A stretch of DNA of 64,000 nucleotides from an uncultured Metabacillus sp. GTDB taxonomy: Bacteria > Bacillota > Bacilli > Bacillales > Bacillaceae. Below the pieces are notes generated by a model. The model made no database searches, had not been told where the DNA came from, and saw nothing but the letters and a program-made list of their open reading frames with translations. A program made the translations under genes and the position numbers. Shown here one piece after another: positions 39,156 through 48,232 of this stretch (positions within the stretch are counted from its first letter, which is position 1; each line of letters opens with the position of its first letter). The stretch covers positions 1-64,000 of the forward strand of contig NZ_CANNCR010000001.1 of assembly GCF_947503125.1 (NCBI RefSeq), read 5' to 3'.

Positions 39156-39335
39156 TTCTTTTTCTTCCTTTCATCCTTAAAATGTGAGTATACGCCTTTA
39201 CCATATCCATTTTAAAAATAACTATTCAAAGAAAGGAATGAAAAATAGAATAATTAGGAATCGAAAAGATATTTTTTCATTCTGTTTATTATGGTATCTT
39301 GTATAAAGGAAAGTGAAATAAGGGGGATCAGGTAT

Positions 39336-40442
39336 TTGTTAAATCTCATGTATTTAATTTTTCTATTTTTCTTTATTTGTTGGTTCATCTGGAATGTCCC
39401 GAAACGTTCAGGAGAAACACCGTTCGATGAATCATTTGTCCGATCATTTATTAAAAGATATGGCGGGAATTCGTTATCACATCTTCTATTTTTGCAGGAT
39501 AAACAAATTTATATGGCGCAAAATGATTCTGTGATGATTTCCTATAGACAAAAAGGAAATAAACTTTTTGTTCTAGGTGATCCAATTGGAGAAGAGTTGT
39601 GTTTTGAAGCTGGTCTGGATGAATTCATTGATTATGCCAGTCGCATGCGAGCAATACCTGTTTTTTACCAAGCTAGTGAAAGGTTCCTACCATTTTTACA
39701 AGAGCGCGGCTATCGTTTCTTCAAAGTTGGTGAGGAAGCAAGGGTTTGTTTGGATCATTTCAAGATAGAAGGCAAGAAATCTGCAAAAATTCGGACAACA
39801 AGAAACAAGTTTTTAAGAGAGGGATATCAATTTTCCGTCATCTATCCTCCGTTTAGTACTGAACTGATTGAAGAACTTAAAGCGGTTTCTGACGAATGGT
39901 TAGCAGAACGATATGAAAAAAGCTTTTCGGTCAGCTCCTTTCATGAAGATTATATTACCCTTTTTCCCGTTTCGATTTTAAGAAGTCCACAGGGGAAGTT
40001 AGTTGCCTTTGCGAGCTTGCCTTCTGATTATAAAGCGGATGAGTCAATAAGCATTGATTTAATGAGGTATACAAAGGCTGGTTCTTCTGGAGCAATGGAT
40101 ATGGTTTTTCTTTCGACAATAATGTGGGCAAAGGAAAAGGGATTTTCATCCTGCAGCTTAGGAATGTCGCCATTATCAAATGTAGGAACTGAGGAAGGGG
40201 CGCCTATTCCGGAGAAAATAGCAAGGTATGTCTTTTTGAATGGCTGTAAATATTATAATTTTAAAGGATTGCGCAGATATAAAGCTAAATTTGCCACTGA
40301 TTGGATGCCGCGTTATCTCGTTTATAAGAAATCATTTTTGTTGATTTTAATTATTCACTTAATGGCAATGGTAAGAAAACAGCCTAGACTAAAACGAAAC
40401 TCATTTGTTAGAAAGCTAATTCGTGTTAAAAAAGCGGTGTAA
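39336..40442 (+). CDS. Membrane-anchored phosphatidylglycerol lysyltransferase-like protein (DUF2156)
   Basis: This 368-residue protein has one N-terminal membrane helix (residues 2-18) and then a tandem GNAT-type domain like the C-terminal catalytic domain of MprF. Visible family features are MISYRQKGNKLFVLGDPIG, the SMRYTKAG-like block SIDLMRYTKAG, and the FKGLRRYKAKFATDW region near the C-terminus. MprF has a large multi-helix flippase in front, absent here. The start is TTG 39336, 9 bases after AGGGGG. It may transfer an amino acid from tRNA to a lipid or other acceptor. A C-terminal hydrophobic stretch (LLILIIHLMAMV) may also contact membrane. Confidence 0.78.
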   Translation: MLNLMYLIFLFFFICWFIWNVPKRSGETPFDESFVRSFIKRYGGNSLSHLLFLQDKQIYMAQNDSVMISYRQKGNKLFVLGDPIGEELCFEAGLDEFIDYASRMRAIPVFYQASERFLPFLQERGYRFFKVGEEARVCLDHFKIEGKKSAKIRTTRNKFLREGYQFSVIYPPFSTELIEELKAVSDEWLAERYEKSFSVSSFHEDYITLFPVSILRSPQGKLVAFASLPSDYKADESISIDLMRYTKAGSSGAMDMVFLSTIMWAKEKGFSSCSLGMSPLSNVGTEEGAPIPEKIARYVFLNGCKYYNFKGLRRYKAKFATDWMPRYLVYKKSFLLILIIHLMAMVRKQPRLKRNSFVRKLIRVKKAV

Positions 40443-40448
40443 GAGTGG

Positions 40449-40514
40449 AAAAGGGTCAGATCCTAACCAAATCCTCTAAACTAGAAGATTTGGATCTAGG
40501 ATTTGACCCTTTTT
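40449..40514. terminator. Bidirectional terminator
   Basis: AAAAGGGTCA and TGACCCTTTT outer arms with inner ATCCTA/TAGGAT pairing, lying between convergent genes. Confidence 0.8.
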
Positions 40515-40527
40515 GATAAGAATGCTT

Positions 40528-40815
40528 TCATATACTTTCAACAAGCTGCCTGCAATAGCTCGTTACTTCCTTTATTTCATCGTCCAATAATGCATAGTCT
40601 AAAACAAGCTCGGTTGTTTTTTCGATAAAATGATATTGCGCAATTTTAGCTTGTTCACCTTCAACTGCAAAGATGAGATTTAGGACAATTCCGTTTTCAC
40701 TATAAAGTACATCTTCTTCATCAATATCCAAAGTAAGGATTATTTCATACCGTTCACCTGTAAGAATACCGAATGGATCTTCCAATTTTTCGATTTTAGA
40801 TTCAATAATTTTCAT
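40528..40815 (-). CDS. Conserved hypothetical protein (DUF6509-like)
   Basis: This 95-residue acidic protein contains LEDPFGILTGERYEIIL near the N-terminus and LDYALLDDEIKEVTSYC at the end. The pattern recalls a small conserved Bacillus family (DUF6509), but the assignment is from memory. No membrane helix or catalytic motif is seen. AGAGGTT lies about 10 bases before the start. It stands alone. Confidence 0.65.
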   Translation of the reverse strand: MKIIESKIEKLEDPFGILTGERYEIILTLDIDEEDVLYSENGIVLNLIFAVEGEQAKIAQYHFIEKTTELVLDYALLDDEIKEVTSYCRQLVESI

Positions 40816-41016
40816 ACTTTATGTAACCTCTTTTCTATTTTCAACAAGGATTAACTCAATGTATATTATAGCCTTTTAAAGGAACCAAGCCAAATATGAG
40901 TTCTTTCAGGATGGATGTAAGCTTTATCTGGAATGTCCTTTGCGTTATAAAAGACAGTGATCTGGAGTTTAAAGTGAATTGAATTGAATATAACCCTATC
41001 ATAGTTATAATTTACT

Positions 41017-41045
41017 GAGCATCTTACGTGTGAGATGTTCTTTTT
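41017..41045 (+). terminator. Isolated terminator in the 40816-41095 gene-free stretch
   Basis: GAGCATCT and AGATGTTC (one G-T pair) are followed by five T residues. No gene precedes it on this strand, so the transcript it ends is unclear. The rest of 40816-41095 shows nothing recognisable. Confidence 0.6.
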
Positions 41046-41095
41046 GTCTATTTAATCCCTTTTTTTGTAAGATGCATAGCAAAAAAACGAAAGTT

Positions 41096-41203
41096 TGTTA
41101 GATTTTCTAACGTTGAATTTTCAGAAACCTTCGAAAATAGGTTGACACTTAAAGATAATCGTATAAAATAGTAAATAAGAACGAGATGTTATATTTTCTT
41201 ACA
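41096..41203 (+). promoter_or_regulatory. Nitrogen-controlled promoter with two TnrA/GlnR boxes
   Basis: Box 1 at 41096-41112 is TGTTAGATTTTCTAACG, one mismatch to TGTNA-N7-TNACA. Box 2 at 41187-41203 is TGTTATATTTTCTTACA, a perfect match. Between them, TTGACA (41142) and TAAAAT (41164) with 16-base spacing form a sigma-A promoter. Upstream TnrA activation combined with a downstream GlnR/TnrA site fits nitrogen-limitation control of the amt operon. Confidence 0.75.
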
Positions 41204-41239
41204 TCTAAAGTTAGTAAATCGCACAAGGGAGGAAATACA

Positions 41240-42505
41240 ATGGACACGATGTTTTTAATGAACAGCTTGTGGGTCATGCTAGGAGCAATTTTAGTTATTT
41301 TTATGTTAGGTGGATTTATACTACTTGAGGCCGGTTCAACAAGAATGAAAAACGCAGGTCATATTGCGGGTAAAACAATTTTTACATTCGGTTTGGCATC
41401 ATTGGTTTTCTGGGCAGTAGGGTATGGATTTATTTTTGGTGATAATGGAAACTTTTTTGTTGGCTTATCCGATTTCTTCTATTCTGGTTATCAAGTAGAA
41501 GATATGGGCTTAGCAACATCTGTATTTTTTGTCTTCCAATTAGCCTTTGCAGGAATTTCTATCACAATTGCTTTAGGTGGATTTGCAGAACGGGCGAAGC
41601 TTTCTGTTTACCTTGTTTTTACTGTATTATTTTCAGCACTTATTTATCCGGTTATTGCACATTGGATTTGGGGAGGCGGCTGGTTAGCTGAACATGGAAA
41701 GCAAGATTTTGCTGGCTCTACAGTTGTTCATTTAACAGGCGCGATGGCAGCATTTGCCGCAACAATTTTGTTGAAGCCGCGTATTGGCAAATATAATAAA
41801 GATGGTTCTGCCAATAATATACAAGGACATAACCAAGTATTTACGGCTTTAGGTGTGTTAATTTTATGGATTGGCTGGTTCGGTTTTAATGCAGGAAGTA
41901 CTGTAGCGGTCGATGACGGATTTTTTGGATTTGTAGCTTTAAATACGAATTTAGCAGCAGGTGCAGGAGCTGTTTCAGCCCTTATTATTTCTTGGATCGT
42001 ATTGGGTAAATCAGATATTCCGACAATGTTGAATGGAGCTTTAGCAGGTTTAGTAGCCATTACTGCATCTTGTGCATTCGTTGATACATGGGCAGCGGTT
42101 GTCATTGGTTTAATAGCTGGGATCCTCGTTTTCTATAGTGCTAGATTCTTTGAAAAGAGAAAAATCGATGATCCAATTTTCGCATTATCAGTTCACGGAG
42201 TAGCGGGTGTATGGGGAACATTATCGACAGGATTTTTTGCAACACCGGAACTCGCTACTGTAGGCTTGCCAGGACTATTTTACGGTGGCGGATTTACACA
42301 GCTTGGCGTACAATTTATGGGAGTAGCAGTTTCTGGAGCATACGCATTCGTTGTATCATTTATCATTTTAGCAATCTCGAAAAAGCTGATGAATGGATTG
42401 CGTGTAACAGAAGAAGAAGAAATCATGGGCTTGGATATAAGTGAACATGGTAGCTATGGTTATCCTGAATTATTTGTAACGAAAGATCAAAATGTCGGTT
42501 CATAA
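41240..42505 (+). CDS. amtB: Ammonium transporter (Amt/NrgA)
   Basis: This 421-residue membrane protein has 11 predicted helices. It carries the Amt signature around GGFAERAKLSVYL and the channel histidines within VVHLTGAMAAF and SVHGVAGVWGTLSTG. It conducts ammonium/ammonia inward under nitrogen limitation. ATG 41240 follows GGGAGGAAATAC. In B. subtilis the partner is the PII protein NrgB (GlnK); here no PII gene follows, but a nucleotidyltransferase and an exonuclease gene do. The TnrA/GlnR-type promoter upstream fits its role. Confidence 0.94.
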   Translation: MDTMFLMNSLWVMLGAILVIFMLGGFILLEAGSTRMKNAGHIAGKTIFTFGLASLVFWAVGYGFIFGDNGNFFVGLSDFFYSGYQVEDMGLATSVFFVFQLAFAGISITIALGGFAERAKLSVYLVFTVLFSALIYPVIAHWIWGGGWLAEHGKQDFAGSTVVHLTGAMAAFAATILLKPRIGKYNKDGSANNIQGHNQVFTALGVLILWIGWFGFNAGSTVAVDDGFFGFVALNTNLAAGAGAVSALIISWIVLGKSDIPTMLNGALAGLVAITASCAFVDTWAAVVIGLIAGILVFYSARFFEKRKIDDPIFALSVHGVAGVWGTLSTGFFATPELATVGLPGLFYGGGFTQLGVQFMGVAVSGAYAFVVSFIILAISKKLMNGLRVTEEEEIMGLDISEHGSYGYPELFVTKDQNVGS

Positions 42506-42560
42506 ACAGGAAGCTTGGTTTACCTCGTTTCATTTTAAAAATGTTGAGGGAGTGTCTCTC

Positions 42561-43550
42561 ATGCATAGGGAGTTTGATTCATATGAATCAATTAAAAAAT
42601 GGAAAGACGATCATATTCATAAATTTGAATTTGACACAAAACAATTAAACGATTTCCATGATGAGATGATGAGGAGTGCTAGTAAGTTAGCACTCTTTCA
42701 TCTTGAGAAAAACATTGGTTTACCTCCTTGTAACTATACTTGGTTTATTACTGGAAGCGGCGGCAGGATCGAACAAGGAATTATAAGCGATCAAGACCAT
42801 GGTCTGATCTATGAAGAAGACACTGAACAGGCTGGCTTTTATTTTAAAAAGCTAGGAGAAGAGCTTTCAAAAGGTCTTCATGCCATTGGTTATCCTTATT
42901 GTGAAGGAAAGATCATGAGCTCTAACCCGCTTTGGTGTCAATCGTTTGCAAATTGGAAACAGCAACTTTTTAATTGGATGGAAGAACAAACATGGGAATC
43001 CATTCGTTACTTGCAAATTTTTTACGATTCTCGCAGCCTTGTTGGAGAAAAAAACTATGTGGATGAGCTTAAACAGTCGATATTTTTATATCAAAAGGAA
43101 CATCATAAGCTTCTTCAGCGATTTTTAGATAATGTTCAGCATATTAAGCATTCAGTAGGGCTTTTGGGCCAGCTTTATGTTGAAACCGGAGGTAAGTATG
43201 AGGGCTGTATTGATATAAAAAAAGCAGCTTTTTTGCCATATGTAAATGCAGTTAGACTTTTGGCGATTAAAGAGGGGGTGGTTGAGACGTCGACCATAGA
43301 ACGAATACACCGCCTTTGTGAAAATAAAACCTATCGCAATGAACTTCTTCAGTATCAGCAAAATTTTGAAAAGCTTCTTGATTATCGGCTTTTAGTATTT
43401 GCAAATGCTGAATCCTATGATGATATTCATTATCTTAATATTAGGAAATTGTCTAAACTTGAACGAAAAGAAATTAAAAACATATTGAAAGCCGGCAAAA
43501 AACTCCATCAATATGTTCAAGGGATAATCGAAAAAGGGTGTTATGAATGA
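42561..43550 (+). CDS. DUF294-type (GlnD-like) nucleotidyltransferase
   Basis: This protein of about 329 residues has a DUF294 nucleotidyltransferase domain: GSGGRIEQGIISDQDHGLIY carries the GS motif and the two metal-binding aspartates. A helical DUF294 C-terminal domain follows (about 190-320). Related proteins usually have N-terminal CBS or cyclic-nucleotide domains; this one lacks them. The start at 42561 follows GAGGGAGTG; an in-frame ATG at 42492 overlapping amt has no ribosome site. It lies between amt and an exonuclease gene, overlapping the latter by ATGA, so they form one operon. GlnD modifies PII; whether this enzyme does so is unknown. Confidence 0.85.
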   Translation: MHREFDSYESIKKWKDDHIHKFEFDTKQLNDFHDEMMRSASKLALFHLEKNIGLPPCNYTWFITGSGGRIEQGIISDQDHGLIYEEDTEQAGFYFKKLGEELSKGLHAIGYPYCEGKIMSSNPLWCQSFANWKQQLFNWMEEQTWESIRYLQIFYDSRSLVGEKNYVDELKQSIFLYQKEHHKLLQRFLDNVQHIKHSVGLLGQLYVETGGKYEGCIDIKKAAFLPYVNAVRLLAIKEGVVETSTIERIHRLCENKTYRNELLQYQQNFEKLLDYRLLVFANAESYDDIHYLNIRKLSKLERKEIKNILKAGKKLHQYVQGIIEKGCYE

Positions 43551-44260
43551 CATTTGACCCATTTTTTTTTATGAAAGGCATTCAAGGAAAGCTTGGTGGT
43601 TCACAAAGTGGACAAAGTCAACAGCAGGTTGCGTTTTTAAGGCAATTGCAACGTGAAATGAGAGTAGAGGAAACACTAAATATACCGCTGTCTGACTTAA
43701 ATGTTATTGTTTTTGATATAGAAACAACTGGTTTTTATCCCGAGCAAGGAGATCAAATTATTTCAATCGGAGCTATCAAGGTGAAGGGTGATAAAATAAA
43801 CGAGAATGAAACATTTTATTCACTAGTCAGAACAGATAAGCTGCTTACCGATGAAATTAGTCAACTGACAGGTTTATATGACACTCAATTACAGCAGGCT
43901 CCACCATTATCAGAAGTCCTTTTTCAATTTTTTCAGTTTACACAAGACTATACACTCGTCGCCCACCATGCAAACCATGAGAAAGTATTCTTACAGCATG
44001 CATCATGGAAGTTATATCGTGCACCATTTAAGCATCGATTAGTTGATATGTCCTTCTTATATCGCATTGCTGAACCAGAGGTAAAGTTAATTACGCTTGA
44101 AGAATGCTGTGAGCATAATGGAATCCCGATTATTGGCAGACATCATGCGCTGCAAGACGCGAAATTAACTGCTCAACTTTGGAGCATTTATGTCAATAAG
44201 CTTTATCAAAAAGGCTGTGAATCACTGAAAGATTTATATGAACAGTTAACGAAAGTATGA
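43547..44260 (+). CDS. DnaQ-type 3'-5' exonuclease
   Basis: This 237-residue DEDDh exonuclease has ExoI FDIETTGFYP, ExoII HHANHEKVF and ExoIII HHALQDAKLTAQLW, so all catalytic acids and the histidine are present. There is a 50-residue N-terminal extension before the fold. It resembles the epsilon subunit but is not fused to polymerase. It overlaps the nucleotidyltransferase gene by four bases. The same nucleotidyltransferase-exonuclease pairing is common in proteobacteria next to acetate/sodium symporters; here the transporter is Amt. Confidence 0.88.
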   Translation: MTFDPFFFMKGIQGKLGGSQSGQSQQQVAFLRQLQREMRVEETLNIPLSDLNVIVFDIETTGFYPEQGDQIISIGAIKVKGDKINENETFYSLVRTDKLLTDEISQLTGLYDTQLQQAPPLSEVLFQFFQFTQDYTLVAHHANHEKVFLQHASWKLYRAPFKHRLVDMSFLYRIAEPEVKLITLEECCEHNGIPIIGRHHALQDAKLTAQLWSIYVNKLYQKGCESLKDLYEQLTKV

Positions 44261-44289
44261 TAAGTATTAATAAATATGAAGATCAAATG

Positions 44290-44324
44290 AAGAAGACATC
44301 CTTCATTATGGTCTTCTTTTTTTT
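44290..44324 (+). terminator. Terminator of the amt operon
   Basis: AGAAGAC and GTCTTCT flank a 13-base loop and end in eight T residues. Confidence 0.85.
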
Positions 44325-44353
44325 ATACAAACCTCGTAAAAAAGCGTGTTTTT

Positions 44354-44427
44354 ATTACATCGTTTTACAAGTCTTTACAAAAAATGAACAATTACCTACA
44401 GATTTATTTACATTCTCTTAGTACAAT
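44354..44427 (+). promoter_or_regulatory. PhoP-like boxes and -10 upstream of the YfkN-type gene
   Basis: Hexamers ATTACA (44354), TTTACA (44364), TTTACA (44374), CCTACA (44395) and TTTACA (44407) recur at roughly helical spacing, before TACAAT at 44422-44427. The spacing is less regular than in front of ppk, so the PhoP assignment is weaker. Confidence 0.45.
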
Positions 44428-44485
44428 AATTTAGTAGTAGGAAAGTAATGGTATCTGAATAAAAAAATGGAAAGGTGGAAATGTT

Positions 44486-47400
44486 TTGAGGAAAAGATTG
44501 AATCGTATATTTAAGTGGAAAATTTTTTATGGTGCTCTGGCATCAACTCTAGCTCTAAGTGTATTTCCATTTTCATCATTGTCAGGCATTGCACATGCTG
44601 AAGATACACCTGTTACCATGAATGTAAGGCTTTTGGAGACGACGGATATCCATGCCCATATTATGGATTATGATTATTATGGGGACAAATCCGTCACAAA
44701 CTTTGGCTTAGTAAGAACCTCTGCATTATTAAAGCAGCGTCAAGCTGAGGTAGAGAATAGTATTCTAGTAGATAATGGTGATTTAATTCAAGGAAATCCC
44801 TTAGGTGAATATGTTTATAAACAAGGATTAAGAGATGGAGAGGTTCATCCGATAATCGCTGCTATGAATCTATTGGACTATGACGCTGCAACCGTGGGGA
44901 ATCATGAATTTAATTATGGCTTAGACTTTTTAAATGAAACGATGGATGATGCCAATTACCCAGTGGTAAACGCCAATGTCTTCCATGTAGGCAATCAAAA
45001 TGATTACTATTTTAAACCTTATGAAATTGTTGAAAAAGAATTTGTTGATCATAATGGTGAAACTCATAAAGTGAAAGTTGGTTTTACCGGGTTTGTACCG
45101 CCGCAAATTAACGTATGGGATAAGAAGCATTTAGACGGAAAGGTTGTAACGAAGGATATCGTCGAATCTGCCAAAAAAATCGTTCCTGAAATGAAGGAAC
45201 AGGGAGCAGATTTAATCATCGTTATTGCACATACGGGCATTGATCCAAATGAAGGTCAAAGCGGCTCTGAAAATGCTGTTTTTGATTTAACAAAACAGGT
45301 AGCAGATATTGATGCTGTTGTATCTGGCCATCAGCATAACCTCTTCCCAGGCGACTCAAGATTTAATGGGGCTGCAAATATTGATAATGAAAAGGGAACA
45401 GTTAATGGTGTACCAGTTGTCATGCCGAAAAACTGGGGGAGCCATTTAGGGATGATTGACCTTACTTTACAAAGAACTGAGGTCGTTAATGGCGAAGAGG
45501 AATGGGATGTCATTGATTCCAAGTCAACAGCCGAATCCATTTCAGGTGTTAATGAAAAGAACCAGGAAATGGTTGCTGCTGTAAAGAGTGCCCATGACGC
45601 TACTTTGGAATATGTCAGAAAAAGTGTTGGGACAACAACAGCTCCTATTAATAGTTTCTTTGCCCTTGTTCAAGATGATCCTTCCATTCAAATCGTAACA
45701 GATGCTCAAAGGTGGTATGCTGAACAAAAGTTAAAGGGAACTGAATATGAAGGAATGCCATTATTATCGGTTGGTGCCCCATTTAAAGCAGGAGGGAGAA
45801 ATGGAGCCGATTATTATACAAATATCCCAAAAGGTGATTTAGCCATTAAAAATATTGGTGACCTTTACCTTTATGACAATACAGTTCAAATTGTGAAAAT
45901 AACTGGTGCTGAAGTGAAGGAATGGTTAGAAATGTCAGCGGGTCAGTTCAATCAAATTGATCCTGCTTCAACAGAAGAACAAAGTTTAATCAATACAGAA
46001 TTTCCAACCTACAATTATGATGTGATTGACGGTGTTACATACCAAATTGATGTAACAAAACCGGCTAAATATGATACTAAGGGAAACCTGATCAATGGTG
46101 AATCATCACGGATTAAAAATTTAATGTATGATGGCAAGCCAATCGACTTAGACCAGGAGTTTCTAGTTGTAACGAATAACTATCGTGCTTCAGGCGGAGG
46201 GAATTTCCCTGGAAATCTGCCTTCAAAGATCATTGAACAATTTCCAGATGAAAATCGTCAAGCGGTAATGAATTATATTATGGAAAAAGGCGAAGTAAAT
46301 CCTTCAGCAGATAACAACTGGTCAATTGCTCCGATTTTTGGAAATGTAAACGTAACCTTTGAATCATCAACAGAAGCAAAGCAGTTTACTGAAGATACGG
46401 ATACGATTAAATTTCTTGAAACATTAGATACAGGGTTTAGTAAATATAAATTAGAGGTAGGATCAGATAAGTGGAATCTTACGATTATGCATACGAATGA
46501 TACCCATGCTCATCTGGACAATGTTGCCAGACGTGTTACTGCTGTAGAGCAAGTCCGAGCAGCTGCTGATCATTCGATCCTTCTTGATGCAGGTGATGTT
46601 TTCTCAGGAACATTATTCTTTAATCAATACCTCGGACAAGCTGACCTTGAATTTATGAACATGATGAAATATGATGCCATGGTACCTGGAAATCATGAAT
46701 TTGATAAAGGGACTAGTGTTTTTGCAGACTTTATTAACAAGGCAAATTTTCCAATAGTAAGCGCTAATATCGATTACTCAGAAGACAGTCATCTAGGGCC
46801 ATTATTTAAGGACAAATTCGCAAATTCAGGGGAGAAAGGGATTTATCCAGCAGCTATTTTGGATGTGGAAGGTGAAAAGGTCGGTGTTTTTGGATTAACG
46901 ACAGAAGAAACAGCGATTCTTTCAAATCCTGGTAAGGATATTTCTTTTAATAATCATATCGAAAAGGCAAAGGAAACAGTAAAATTACTTGAAAATGAAG
47001 GCATTAACAAGATCATTGCCTTAACACATATTGGTTATAACAATGATAAGGTGTTAGCGGAAGAGGTTGAAGGAATTGACGTAATCGTTGGCGGACACAG
47101 TCATACATACCTCGAAGAACCAACAGTATATAACCAAGATACTGAACCGACCATTATTTTATCGGCACAAGAATACAGCTACTATTTAGGCAATACAAAC
47201 GTAACATTTAATAAAAATGGTGTTCTTCAGGAGTGGGAGCAAAATCTGATCGATCTGGATGCACAAGATGAAAATGGTCAGTATATAATTGAGGAAAACG
47301 CTGCAGCTGCTCAACGTTTGGCTGAATTAGCTGAGCCGATCGAAGAATTAAAAAATCAAATTGTTGGTGAAACATCAGTATTCTTAAATGGTGAACGCGA

Positions 47401-48232
47401 AGATGTTCGTACAAAAGAAACAAATCTTGGAAACTTAATAGCAGATGGAATGCTTTGGCGTGCACAAAAACAAAATACTGGTGCCACAATTGCTATTCAA
47501 AATGGCGGTGGAATCCGCGCTTCAATTGATAAGGGTGAAATTTCTCTTGGTGAAGTACTAACGGTCTTGCCGTTTGCCAATACATTAGTAACGCTTGATT
47601 TGACAGGTCAAGAAATAATTGATGCCCTTGAGAATGGAGTAAGTCAAGTGGAAGATATAGCAGGCCGCTTTCCACAGGTTGCAGGTCTAAAATTTGGCTA
47701 TGATCCTGCAAAACCAGCTGGTAGCCGTGTTCATAGTGTGCAGGTTCAAACGGAAAATGGATTCGAAAAAATTAATCTCGGTGAAACTTACACAGTTGCT
47801 ACCAATGCTTATCTTGCAGATGGAGGGGATGGCTATGCTTCATTTAAAGCTGCAAAAGAAGATGGCCGTATGACGGAACTGTTCATCCCCGATTATGAAG
47901 TTTTCCAAGAATATCTGAATGAAATAGGTACTGTAAATGCTCAAACTGAAGGTAGAATTACCATCGGAGCAGAGCCTGCAGAAAACCAAGGAGAAGATCC
48001 TGAAGAGCAACCTGGTAATGACCCTGTAAATGATAATGAGGAGAAAGATTCAGGTAAAGATAATTCAGCTTCAGGTAATGGTACCAAAAATAGTGATGTT
48101 CCTAATTCAGGAAATTCATTACCAAGTACTGCTACAAATATATATAATTTACTAGCAGCAGGTATTGTGATCATCGTCTGTGGTGTAGCCCTATTTTTTG
48201 TAAGACGTAAGACAAAGCAAGTCCAATCTTAA
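44486..48232 (+). CDS. yfkN: Cell-wall-anchored bifunctional nucleotidase/2',3'-cyclic phosphodiesterase (YfkN-like)
   Basis: This 1248-residue exported protein has a signal peptide (cleavage near HAEDT, residue 39) and two tandem metallophosphatase plus 5'-nucleotidase C modules. Module 1 starts at LLETTDIHAHIMDYDY with GNHEFNYGLDF; module 2 starts at IMHTNDTHAHLDN with GNHEFDKGT and the substrate motif NGGGIRASIDKGEIS. A spacer and a sorting signal LPSTA, a hydrophobic helix and RRKTK end the protein. Like B. subtilis YfkN (LPDTS-type signal, SrtD), it should be sortase-anchored. It releases phosphate from extracellular nucleotides. The start is TTG 44486 after AAAGGTGG. Upstream PhoP-like boxes fit phosphate scavenging. 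Confidence 0.93.
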   Translation: MRKRLNRIFKWKIFYGALASTLALSVFPFSSLSGIAHAEDTPVTMNVRLLETTDIHAHIMDYDYYGDKSVTNFGLVRTSALLKQRQAEVENSILVDNGDLIQGNPLGEYVYKQGLRDGEVHPIIAAMNLLDYDAATVGNHEFNYGLDFLNETMDDANYPVVNANVFHVGNQNDYYFKPYEIVEKEFVDHNGETHKVKVGFTGFVPPQINVWDKKHLDGKVVTKDIVESAKKIVPEMKEQGADLIIVIAHTGIDPNEGQSGSENAVFDLTKQVADIDAVVSGHQHNLFPGDSRFNGAANIDNEKGTVNGVPVVMPKNWGSHLGMIDLTLQRTEVVNGEEEWDVIDSKSTAESISGVNEKNQEMVAAVKSAHDATLEYVRKSVGTTTAPINSFFALVQDDPSIQIVTDAQRWYAEQKLKGTEYEGMPLLSVGAPFKAGGRNGADYYTNIPKGDLAIKNIGDLYLYDNTVQIVKITGAEVKEWLEMSAGQFNQIDPASTEEQSLINTEFPTYNYDVIDGVTYQIDVTKPAKYDTKGNLINGESSRIKNLMYDGKPIDLDQEFLVVTNNYRASGGGNFPGNLPSKIIEQFPDENRQAVMNYIMEKGEVNPSADNNWSIAPIFGNVNVTFESSTEAKQFTEDTDTIKFLETLDTGFSKYKLEVGSDKWNLTIMHTNDTHAHLDNVARRVTAVEQVRAAADHSILLDAGDVFSGTLFFNQYLGQADLEFMNMMKYDAMVPGNHEFDKGTSVFADFINKANFPIVSANIDYSEDSHLGPLFKDKFANSGEKGIYPAAILDVEGEKVGVFGLTTEETAILSNPGKDISFNNHIEKAKETVKLLENEGINKIIALTHIGYNNDKVLAEEVEGIDVIVGGHSHTYLEEPTVYNQDTEPTIILSAQEYSYYLGNTNVTFNKNGVLQEWEQNLIDLDAQDENGQYIIEENAAAAQRLAELAEPIEELKNQIVGETSVFLNGEREDVRTKETNLGNLIADGMLWRAQKQNTGATIAIQNGGGIRASIDKGEISLGEVLTVLPFANTLVTLDLTGQEIIDALENGVSQVEDIAGRFPQVAGLKFGYDPAKPAGSRVHSVQVQTENGFEKINLGETYTVATNAYLADGGDGYASFKAAKEDGRMTELFIPDYEVFQEYLNEIGTVNAQTEGRITIGAEPAENQGEDPEEQPGNDPVNDNEEKDSGKDNSASGNGTKNSDVPNSGNSLPSTATNIYNLLAAGIVIIVCGVALFFVRRKTKQVQS

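Follow-up and report, generated by a model that had tools for sequence, protein, structure and literature searches.

The window analysed here is a 64-kb stretch of DNA from an uncultured Metabacillus sp. (positions 1 to 64,000 of contig NZ_CANNCR010000001.1), and it carries an operon in which the ammonium transporter gene amt is followed by the genes of a short DUF294 nucleotidyltransferase and of a DEDDh (DnaQ-type) exonuclease. This was tentatively read, with a probability of about 0.4 and on the basis of sequence comparisons, as a nitrogen-limitation operon in which an ammonium channel is combined with a GlnD/GlnE-like pair of enzymes, one that would write and one that would erase a covalent mark, in the place held elsewhere by PII.

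Operon layout and predicted control elements

The three genes lie on the + strand in the order amt, DUF294 nucleotidyltransferase, exonuclease. The features of the operon are as follows:

41096..41112, no strand assigned: TnrA/GlnR box I, TGTTAGATTTTCTAACG, one mismatch to TGTNANAWWWTMTNACA
41142..41169, + strand: predicted sigma-70-type promoter TTGACA-16-TAAAAT, 11/12 matches, between both boxes
41187..41203, no strand assigned: TnrA/GlnR box II, TGTTATATTTTCTTACA, exact match, within the 5' leader given an amt start at 41240
41240..42505, + strand: amt, ammonium transporter of 'class B', with the tail GLDISEHGSYGYPE
42561..43550, + strand: short DUF294 nucleotidyltransferase, 329 amino acids, without cyclic-nucleotide (cNMP) or CBS sensor domain
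42753..42797, + strand: nucleotidyltransferase motif GSx10DxD (G65, S66, D77, D79)
43107..43520, + strand: DUF294_C domain, Pfam match
43547..44260, + strand: DEDDh (DnaQ-type) 3'-5' exonuclease of the PRK07740/NF005836 family, with HxxHE in motif II
44290..44324, + strand: probable intrinsic terminator with an 8-bp perfect stem, a 13-nt loop and a T-run, read by eye and not called by the automated scan

The consensus TGTNANAWWWTMTNACA was used for the mismatch scan, and the sites at 41096 and 41187 were the only ones with at most one mismatch across the window. The open frame of amt runs from 41186, and the ATG with a good ribosome site, as judged by eye, is at 41240. Between the amt stop, ending at 42505, and the DUF294 ATG at 42561 there are 55 bases (the DUF294 frame has an additional, earlier ATG at 42492, within amt), and the exonuclease gene, with its ATG at 43547, shares four bases with the end of DUF294 (TGA at 43548–43550). 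The initial annotation had described this gene order, the boxes around the promoter, the gap and the overlap, and its coordinates were exact throughout.

The Amt matched PF00909 (E 1.9e-116) and the DUF294 protein matched PF03445 (E 1e-33, 116.6 bits against a curated cut-off of 21) and, in its DUF294_C domain, PF10335 (E 7.2e-28, 97.6 bits against 22.5); its closest named relatives were found in Bacillus sp. SA1-12 (91%) and Metabacillus (up to 78%). The exonuclease matched PF00929 (E 1.6e-25) and the NCBIfam model NF005836 (292 bits, cut-off 261). No Rfam family reached threshold as a leader RNA element in 40400–44900. From the boxes we infer control by TnrA/GlnR; amt, DUF294 and exonuclease would form one transcript, which the hairpin and T-run at 44290–44324 would probably close. 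The genome encodes a TnrA-like protein (contig C13, 67%) and a GlnR-like protein (contig C28, 44%), both identities being to the TnrA of a relative.

Conservation of the operon and the partner of Amt

The sample of the window's taxonomic order comprised 150 genomes, 137 of them with an Amt match, and Amt counts refer here and below to the matches listed. Class B was defined in the order as Amts at least 59% identical to that of the window, and 84 listed loci of this kind, the window excluded, were fetched with flanks of 0.7 kb upstream and 4.5 kb downstream of amt (about 6.4 kb each). Outside the order 138 listed rows were typed, the window's own order and family being left out, and 74 of them belonged to class B at an identity of at least 57%; DUF294 rows below 58 bits were left out of the Amt-DUF294 join. 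Downstream of amt, DUF294 and exonuclease were present in 67 of the 84 class-B loci of the order, counting as present L050, in which DUF294 is split over two frames; L072 is truncated by the contig end and L027 retains only a remnant of the exonuclease. The 67 operon genomes comprise 66 from the fetched sample, one of them with two operons, and the window's own genome. As judged from the longest frames, those of DUF294 and exonuclease overlap in 47 of the 67 loci, and they overlap or lie at most 20 bases apart in 65.

A set of 80 named loci was found through DUF294; amt precedes it in 80/80 and the exonuclease follows in 79/80. Outside the order, 57 of the 74 listed class-B Amts adjoin DUF294, 53 having it downstream on the same strand, three upstream and one convergent. 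Among the 20 class-B or related loci from outside the order that were fetched for inspection of gene order, L214, L215 and L225 have the order DUF294-exonuclease-amt, L216 has DUF294 upstream of amt and no exonuclease match, L217 has the pair convergent on amt, and L226 and L228–L232 are either amt-DUF294-exonuclease loci or kin linked to SSF symporters. L180, from a record titled Pseudomonas sp. ISL-84, contains a Bacillus-type amt-DUF294-exonuclease operon and is probably a mislabelled or contaminated genome.

Boxes were counted in the 400 nt upstream of amt for 66 of the 67 operons (L081, at a contig start, was left out) and compared with mononucleotide shuffles. At up to two mismatches they occurred in 61/66 (6.7 in shuffled sequence), and at up to one mismatch in 42/66 (0.25 shuffled). 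Since the boxes recur in relatives in this way and the gene order is kept in 67/84 and 79/80 loci, the arrangement is not due to chance; the random neighbourhood across relatives that would have spoken against the initial annotation was not seen for amt-linked copies. Class-B Amts without DUF294 also carry boxes, 14/16 at up to two mismatches and 12/16 at up to one.

The other neighbours in the window are rarely kept among the 80 named loci: yfkN-like genes were found in 5, mprF-C-like genes in 8 and the DUF6509 gene in 11. Right after the operon, 44486–48232 encodes a large predicted cell-wall-anchored 2',3'-cyclic-nucleotide phosphodiesterase/5'-nucleotidase, YfkN-like, with an LPxTATN sorting signal. 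Before it, 39291–40442 encodes a 383-amino-acid protein with the C-terminal (lysyl-phosphatidylglycerol synthase) domain of MprF (PF09924, 4.5e-83); it scored 424.8 bits with NF033480, below the cut-off of 600, and only the C-terminal part was matched.

PII is the textbook centre of the control of ammonium uptake. Its gene was found beside none of the listed class-B Amts, neither in the order (0/84) nor outside it (0/74), and it was likewise missing from all 80 named loci. Among listed Amts sharing no more than 51% identity with that of the window, PII was adjacent in 54/65 cases in the order and in 27/49 outside, and DUF294 stood beside 0/49 of the listed non-class-B Amts outside the order. 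The PII-type Amts are 37–51% identical to the Amt of the window and end in a YGYPE tail. Amt-bearing genomes were tabulated for the operon and for full-strength PII, defined as at least 55 bits. In the order, 15 had operon and PII, 52 the operon without PII, 53 PII without the operon and 17 neither (Fisher p 3e-10); the corresponding numbers outside the order were 7, 45, 39 and 43 (p 4e-5). These p-values are too small because the genomes are related. G071, one of the 15 genomes with a strong match, has its PII beside an Sbt bicarbonate transporter and this PII is SbtB-like; G005, G051 and G118 score alike.

The Amt tree includes 20 PII-linked Amts (also used in the alignment) and 11 extra rows of the taxonomic class, both sets selected by partner. 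In this tree one branch, with support 100, separates the PII class from the rest. DUF294 presence needs 13 changes and absence 12, at least 9 of these on supported branches. This indicates one deep switch of partner followed by about 12 losses (or gains) of DUF294. Class-B Amts also occur without either partner.

The genome of the window has PII elsewhere, beside a second amt. This second gene (L001 1835–3182; G000 contig C13, about 65.9–67.1 kb) lies in two overlapping frames that match PF00909 1–310 and 310–399, and is either a broken gene or an assembly error; if the frame break is no sequencing error, the Amt of the operon may be the sole intact Amt of the genome. The idea that the pair replaces or supplements PII was borne out in so far as the pair stands where PII usually stands, and was weakened by the PII kept beside the frame-broken amt of the same genome and by class-B Amts with neither; 'replacement of PII' is a statement of position and not yet of function.

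Other Amts differed from both types. A third group of 15 rows in the class sample (52–53% identity, e.g., G300:C7:2318118) has neither PII nor DUF294 nearby, and in 15/15 a TnrA-like gene is encoded on the opposite strand at a distance of about 140 bases. Open frames of 771–803 amino acids, in which Amt is probably fused to another domain and which have no adjoining PII, were found at G134:C4:16231, G002:C15:73057, G125:C1:1148743 and G055:C22:218725.

Genes of nitrogen control accompany the operon. A TnrA-like gene (124–148 bits) was present in 12/67 operon loci, against 0.10 expected, and across five family codes; in seven it immediately precedes amt in the same orientation, in four it is convergent behind the exonuclease and in one it is divergent. 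It was also found in 7/80 named loci and in L243, L245, L246 and L247. L217 and L224 have the order tnrA-DUF294-exonuclease (NF053740, 157 and 163 bits, cut-off 140); about 98 nt before tnrA lies a box with two mismatches in L217 and none in L224. The glutamine synthetase (GS) gene glnA joins the pair in three lineages. It is the fourth gene, after a 1-base gap, in L242 and it overlaps the exonuclease in L243 (both by longest frames). In L243 the DUF294 gene is broken; a second copy in that genome, L244, has an intact DUF294 frame and an exonuclease cut by the contig end. In L014 glnA lies just upstream of amt, and in L222 two DUF294-exonuclease pairs flank a GS gene. GS is present in 195/200 genomes of the taxonomic class. 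The PII class shows a parallel arrangement, glnA-PII-amt, in L250, and in L034 an inserted carA, for the glutaminase subunit of carbamoyl-phosphate synthase, separates amt from DUF294.

The two enzymes and their other contexts

The catalytic positions were compared in 160 amt-linked DUF294 rows and 158 exonuclease rows, drawn from three overlapping samples that share species. The alignment of named loci covered 43 of the 80; L155, L171 and L189 were dropped for a stop inside the match range and the others for size. The motif G-S-x10-D-x-D was found in 159/160 DUF294 rows, the exception being a piece of the frame-broken gene of L050, and D156 in 160/160. D156 falls after the core in the alignments with GlnD and GlnE and is referred to only as the third conserved acid. 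In the exonucleases the DEDDh positions D57, E59, E/D145, H199 and D204 were occupied in 158/158 rows, as was His144, where the exonucleases of the long forms mostly have Phe. Both enzymes apparently look catalytically intact, at identities to the window that fall to 26% in the sample of the order, and the loss of catalytic aspartates that would have counted against the initial annotation did not occur in amt-linked copies (159/160 rows).

The DUF294 profile aligned in register with the active sites of Escherichia coli GlnE (E 0.0071) and GlnD (E 0.017); against Cca the active site was not matched and the best hit was a short stretch elsewhere (E 0.065), and the Amt control gave E 0.35. The similarities to GlnE and GlnD suggest at most a ranking of candidates. 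The DUF294 protein of the window matches PF03445 and PF10335 only, and no HD or ACT domain was found in it; the GlnE-family model PF03710 appeared weakly in 3/44 DUF294 members (best E 0.023). No convincing solved relative of DUF294 was found by sequence (E 0.1–0.7), and the nearest solved relatives of the exonuclease by sequence are PolC, DinG and DnaQ. The DUF294_C domain has been grouped with the C-terminal domains of GlnD/GlnE and with HEPN domains (PMC3710099).

Longer relatives of about 640 amino acids combine cNMP-binding, CBS, DUF294 and DUF294_C domains (two were scanned). Sixteen long forms were fetched among the matches listed, and an exonuclease frame adjoins 16/16 (short in L098; at 6507–7184 in L091). 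Their neighbours were assigned by size, start and position, one locus of each type being checked by Pfam. Seven stand behind DUF4212 and SSF symporter genes (checked in L101), three have a sigma-54 regulator gene nearby (L093), and L100 follows a dynamin gene (Pfam). The SSF-linked DUF294s of Bacilli have S or A at the third conserved acid in 8/9; those of L097, L099, L101–L105 and L233 may be pseudo-enzymes or use another acid. In L223 (1905–5582) a protein with a single CBS domain is encoded separately, immediately before a short DUF294 and in its direction, and an MctC-like symporter lies on the downstream side; this locus is a split version of the long form. In three genomes of the family code f58 (L218–L220) a short DUF294 has no class-B Amt nearby, and the class-B Amt of these genomes stands alone.

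Eight of 61 plasmid records were examined. The pair stands behind DUF485-ActP in Microvirga (with acs) and Methylocella, and DUF294 stands behind DUF4212-SSS in Ruegeria, with the exonuclease two genes on, and in Skermanella, with none annotated, so that 3/4 symporter-linked plasmid loci have a DEDDh-type exonuclease. A Cytobacillus plasmid has the pair after a HAD hydrolase gene, and a Paracoccus plasmid has DUF294 behind an MFS gene and the exonuclease behind kinase-like and response regulator genes. The earlier statement that such pairs accompany acetate/sodium symporters was in agreement with the ActP and DUF4212-SSS loci. The more general proposal of a transporter link is supported at these symporters and does not extend to the mrfAB-like, kdgR and free-standing contexts.

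The operon itself has been in print since 2012. A footnote (d) to Table 1 of Kormelink et al. 2012 (PMC3412718) gives an amtB-DUF294-dnaQ operon in Anoxybacillus, Geobacillus, Paenibacillus and Brevibacillus. This is the same operon, and in that table it appears in the footnote only, without a count, a function, the partner switch or the link to tnrA and glnA. Six of the eight rows so marked list no glnK, and Brevibacillus brevis has the operon and no tnrA (Table 1). A literature search, in which most subscription journals were not covered, returned no paper that deals with what the amt-linked pair does, with the exclusion between PII and DUF294 or with the links to tnrA and glnA.

The operon shares with amtB-glnK (nrgA-nrgB) of Bacillus subtilis and other Firmicutes a TnrA/GlnR-type Amt operon with a linked regulator gene and sometimes glnA; it differs in having the nucleotidyltransferase/exonuclease pair instead of PII and an Amt of another class, the YGYPE tail being found there. 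With no PII beside amt (0/84 and 0/74), class-B loci fall outside the AmtB-GlnK type. GlnD has an HD domain and two ACT domains, and GlnE has tandem adenylyltransferase domains. The DUF294 of the window shares with them the Pol-beta nucleotidyltransferase core, at weak similarity, and the proposed logic of addition and removal in nitrogen control, but it lacks HD, ACT and a second nucleotidyltransferase domain, removal is proposed for a separate DEDDh protein, and PII is often absent. The cNMP-CBS-DUF294 and exonuclease pair of acetate symporters, exemplified by Pflu5625, likewise has DUF294 near a transporter and a DEDDh-type exonuclease (in the plasmid loci described above), but there the long form carries cNMP and CBS sensors and the transporter is SSF and not Amt. 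Pflu5625 belongs to the acetate-linked CrbS/R regulon and a role in nucleotidylation has been predicted for it (PMC5715377). The toxin-antitoxin system MntA-HepT (MNT/HEPN) shares the GSx10DxD motif and a helical domain of the group that includes HEPN; in it, a HepT tyrosine receives three AMPs from MntA (PMC7641770). It differs in its HEPN RNase toxin, in place of which a DEDDh exonuclease is found here, and in the boxes, which here suggest nitrogen control.

Proposed function and alternative explanations

Under nitrogen limitation TnrA/GlnR would drive one transcript for the ammonium channel and a two-enzyme module. DUF294 would attach one or a few nucleoside monophosphates (NMPs) to a protein of the GS/TnrA/Amt circuit and the exonuclease would remove them, two separate proteins doing the job of the fused add/remove domains of GlnD and GlnE. 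The action of MntA on HepT is a precedent for the addition. For the removal, oligo-A bound to a protein would present a 3' end, as required by DEDDh enzymes. The compound pNP-TMP is hydrolysed by a DEDDh oligoribonuclease (PMC6390093), and this aryl nucleotide ester may be taken, by our own comparison, as a stand-in for tyrosyl-NMP. Because the short form, unlike the long one, has no cNMP or CBS sensor, its signal would probably come from a partner protein or from nucleotide pools. Among targets, we infer the ranking GS first, TnrA second, and Amt and PII last, since GS is near-universal in the sampled genomes, GlnE, the closest known relative, acts on it, and its gene adjoins the pair in three lineages. 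In B. subtilis both GlnK-AmtB and feedback-inhibited GS act on TnrA (PMC3412718), so that a pair placed between Amt, TnrA and GS would have a favourable position for what PII does there. The wider claim that the pair is a PII-independent covalent switch of Bacilli, in which GS (or TnrA) is nucleotidylated and the DnaQ-like enzyme erases the mark, with sensor-bearing pairs doing the same at acetate symporters, is rather doubtful.

Several observations weigh against an operon with a GlnD/GlnE-like pair in the place of PII. The similarity to GlnE and GlnD is weak (hhalign probabilities of 2.6 and 5.4% in single comparisons), and motif II of the exonuclease has E instead of D at position 145 in 143/158 rows. 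Four long forms stand behind mrfA-mrfB-like genes (Pfam-checked in L094), two Vibrio plasmids have the pair behind kdgR, the short DUF294s of L218–L220 and L223 have no detected exonuclease, and deletion of Pflu5625 had a negligible effect on growth (PMC5715377). A TnrA-like gene also occurs in 3/17 class-B loci outside the operon set, and the tnrA link may belong to amt instead of the pair. The exclusion between PII and DUF294 at the level of the locus is a single event on the Amt tree. Only one genome (G015) of the 16 DUF294-less class-B loci has full-strength PII; given this and the roughly 12 losses on the tree, the pair is dispensable and PII is not swapped back after its loss. Finally, 14 of the 52 operon genomes scored as without PII have PII-family matches below 50 bits yet over the Pfam cut-off. 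When all 14 are counted as PII, the table for the order, in the same sequence as above, becomes 29, 38, 55 and 15 (p 2.5e-5), and 38/67 operon genomes are still without any. Four of the weak matches were inspected and are two-domain or tandem PII-like proteins, not the usual GlnK. In L253, L256 and L257 (G117, G042 and G028) they stand beside a DUF1538 membrane protein (Pfam match in L253, similar-looking frames in the other two) and represent another branch of the PII family in operon genomes.

Amt and PII were considered as targets and set aside. Tyrosine 406 in the Amt tail occurs in 69/69 DUF294-linked and 0/20 PII-linked Amts, yet it is kept in 15/16 Amts without DUF294. Positions 203, 256 and 391 were changed in at least 3/9 DUF294-less Amts, against a mean of 0.25 and up to 4 in random subsets, two of the rows being from the same genus. 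Among 32 Amt columns examined over nine independent pairs none follows the loss of DUF294 in more than an average of 2.4 pairs, the value of the best column, G256, whose maximum is 3, and the suggestion that Amt is the tagged protein was not upheld. GlnK, also named earlier as a possible substrate, fails as a general target, being ruled out by its absence from most operon genomes. A GlnD-like uridylylation of PII by DUF294 is very improbable and already cannot be the general function: the genome of the window has PII and GlnD aligns weakly in register, but 52/67 operon genomes of the order and 45/52 outside it have no full-strength PII, most of those of the order lack even weak matches, no examined locus has PII beside the operon, and DUF294 has neither HD nor ACT domain. 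A role in defence or as a toxin-antitoxin system was also rejected; PADLOC gave no match for DUF294 and, for the exonuclease, generic DEDDh and PDC-S48 models, and there is no HEPN RNase partner.

The enzymes could also act on RNA, DUF294 extending the 3' ends of tRNA or other RNA under nitrogen limitation and the exonuclease trimming them. The usual substrates of DEDDh enzymes are the 3' ends of nucleic acids, the nearest solved relatives of this one by sequence are PolC, DinG and DnaQ, and the mrfA-mrfB-like neighbours of some long-form pairs are a helicase and a nuclease. This is nevertheless unlikely, as the DUF294 profile misses the active site of the CCA-adding enzyme, the DUF294_C domain is of the GlnD/GlnE type, and the linkage to amt, tnrA and glnA would be left unexplained. 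Production of a soluble (oligo)nucleotide messenger by DUF294 and its degradation by the exonuclease, like that of short RNAs by oligoribonuclease, is quite improbable. The Pol-beta superfamily does include signal synthases, the long form carries ligand-binding cNMP and CBS domains, and a DEDDh oligoribonuclease cleaves a mimic of a dinucleotide (PMC6390093); on the other hand, no receptor gene is conserved in the operon, the best-aligning relatives GlnE and GlnD modify proteins, and DUF294 has no match in the defence library. The linkage may, with low probability, reflect co-regulation only, the pair belonging to the nitrogen regulon without a functional tie to Amt and the linkage being an inherited convenience. 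Boxes before tnrA-DUF294-exonuclease, the lack of a clear compensating change in class-B Amts without the pair and the unrelated neighbours of the long forms are consistent with this, but the link to amt is kept through other gene arrangements and at protein identities down to 26%, while the other neighbours scatter.

Amt-bearing genomes without full-strength PII are frequent, 69/137 in the order and 88/134 in the outside sample, and a conserved, apparently intact pair in the place of PII and near tnrA and glnA offers a specific candidate for some of the control that is missing. If the reading as a covalent switch is true, a DnaQ-type exonuclease would here serve as a protein de-nucleotidylase. 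The operon also makes the function of the widespread DUF294 and exonuclease family, found at acetate symporters too, directly testable in laboratory strains of Bacillus or Geobacillus.

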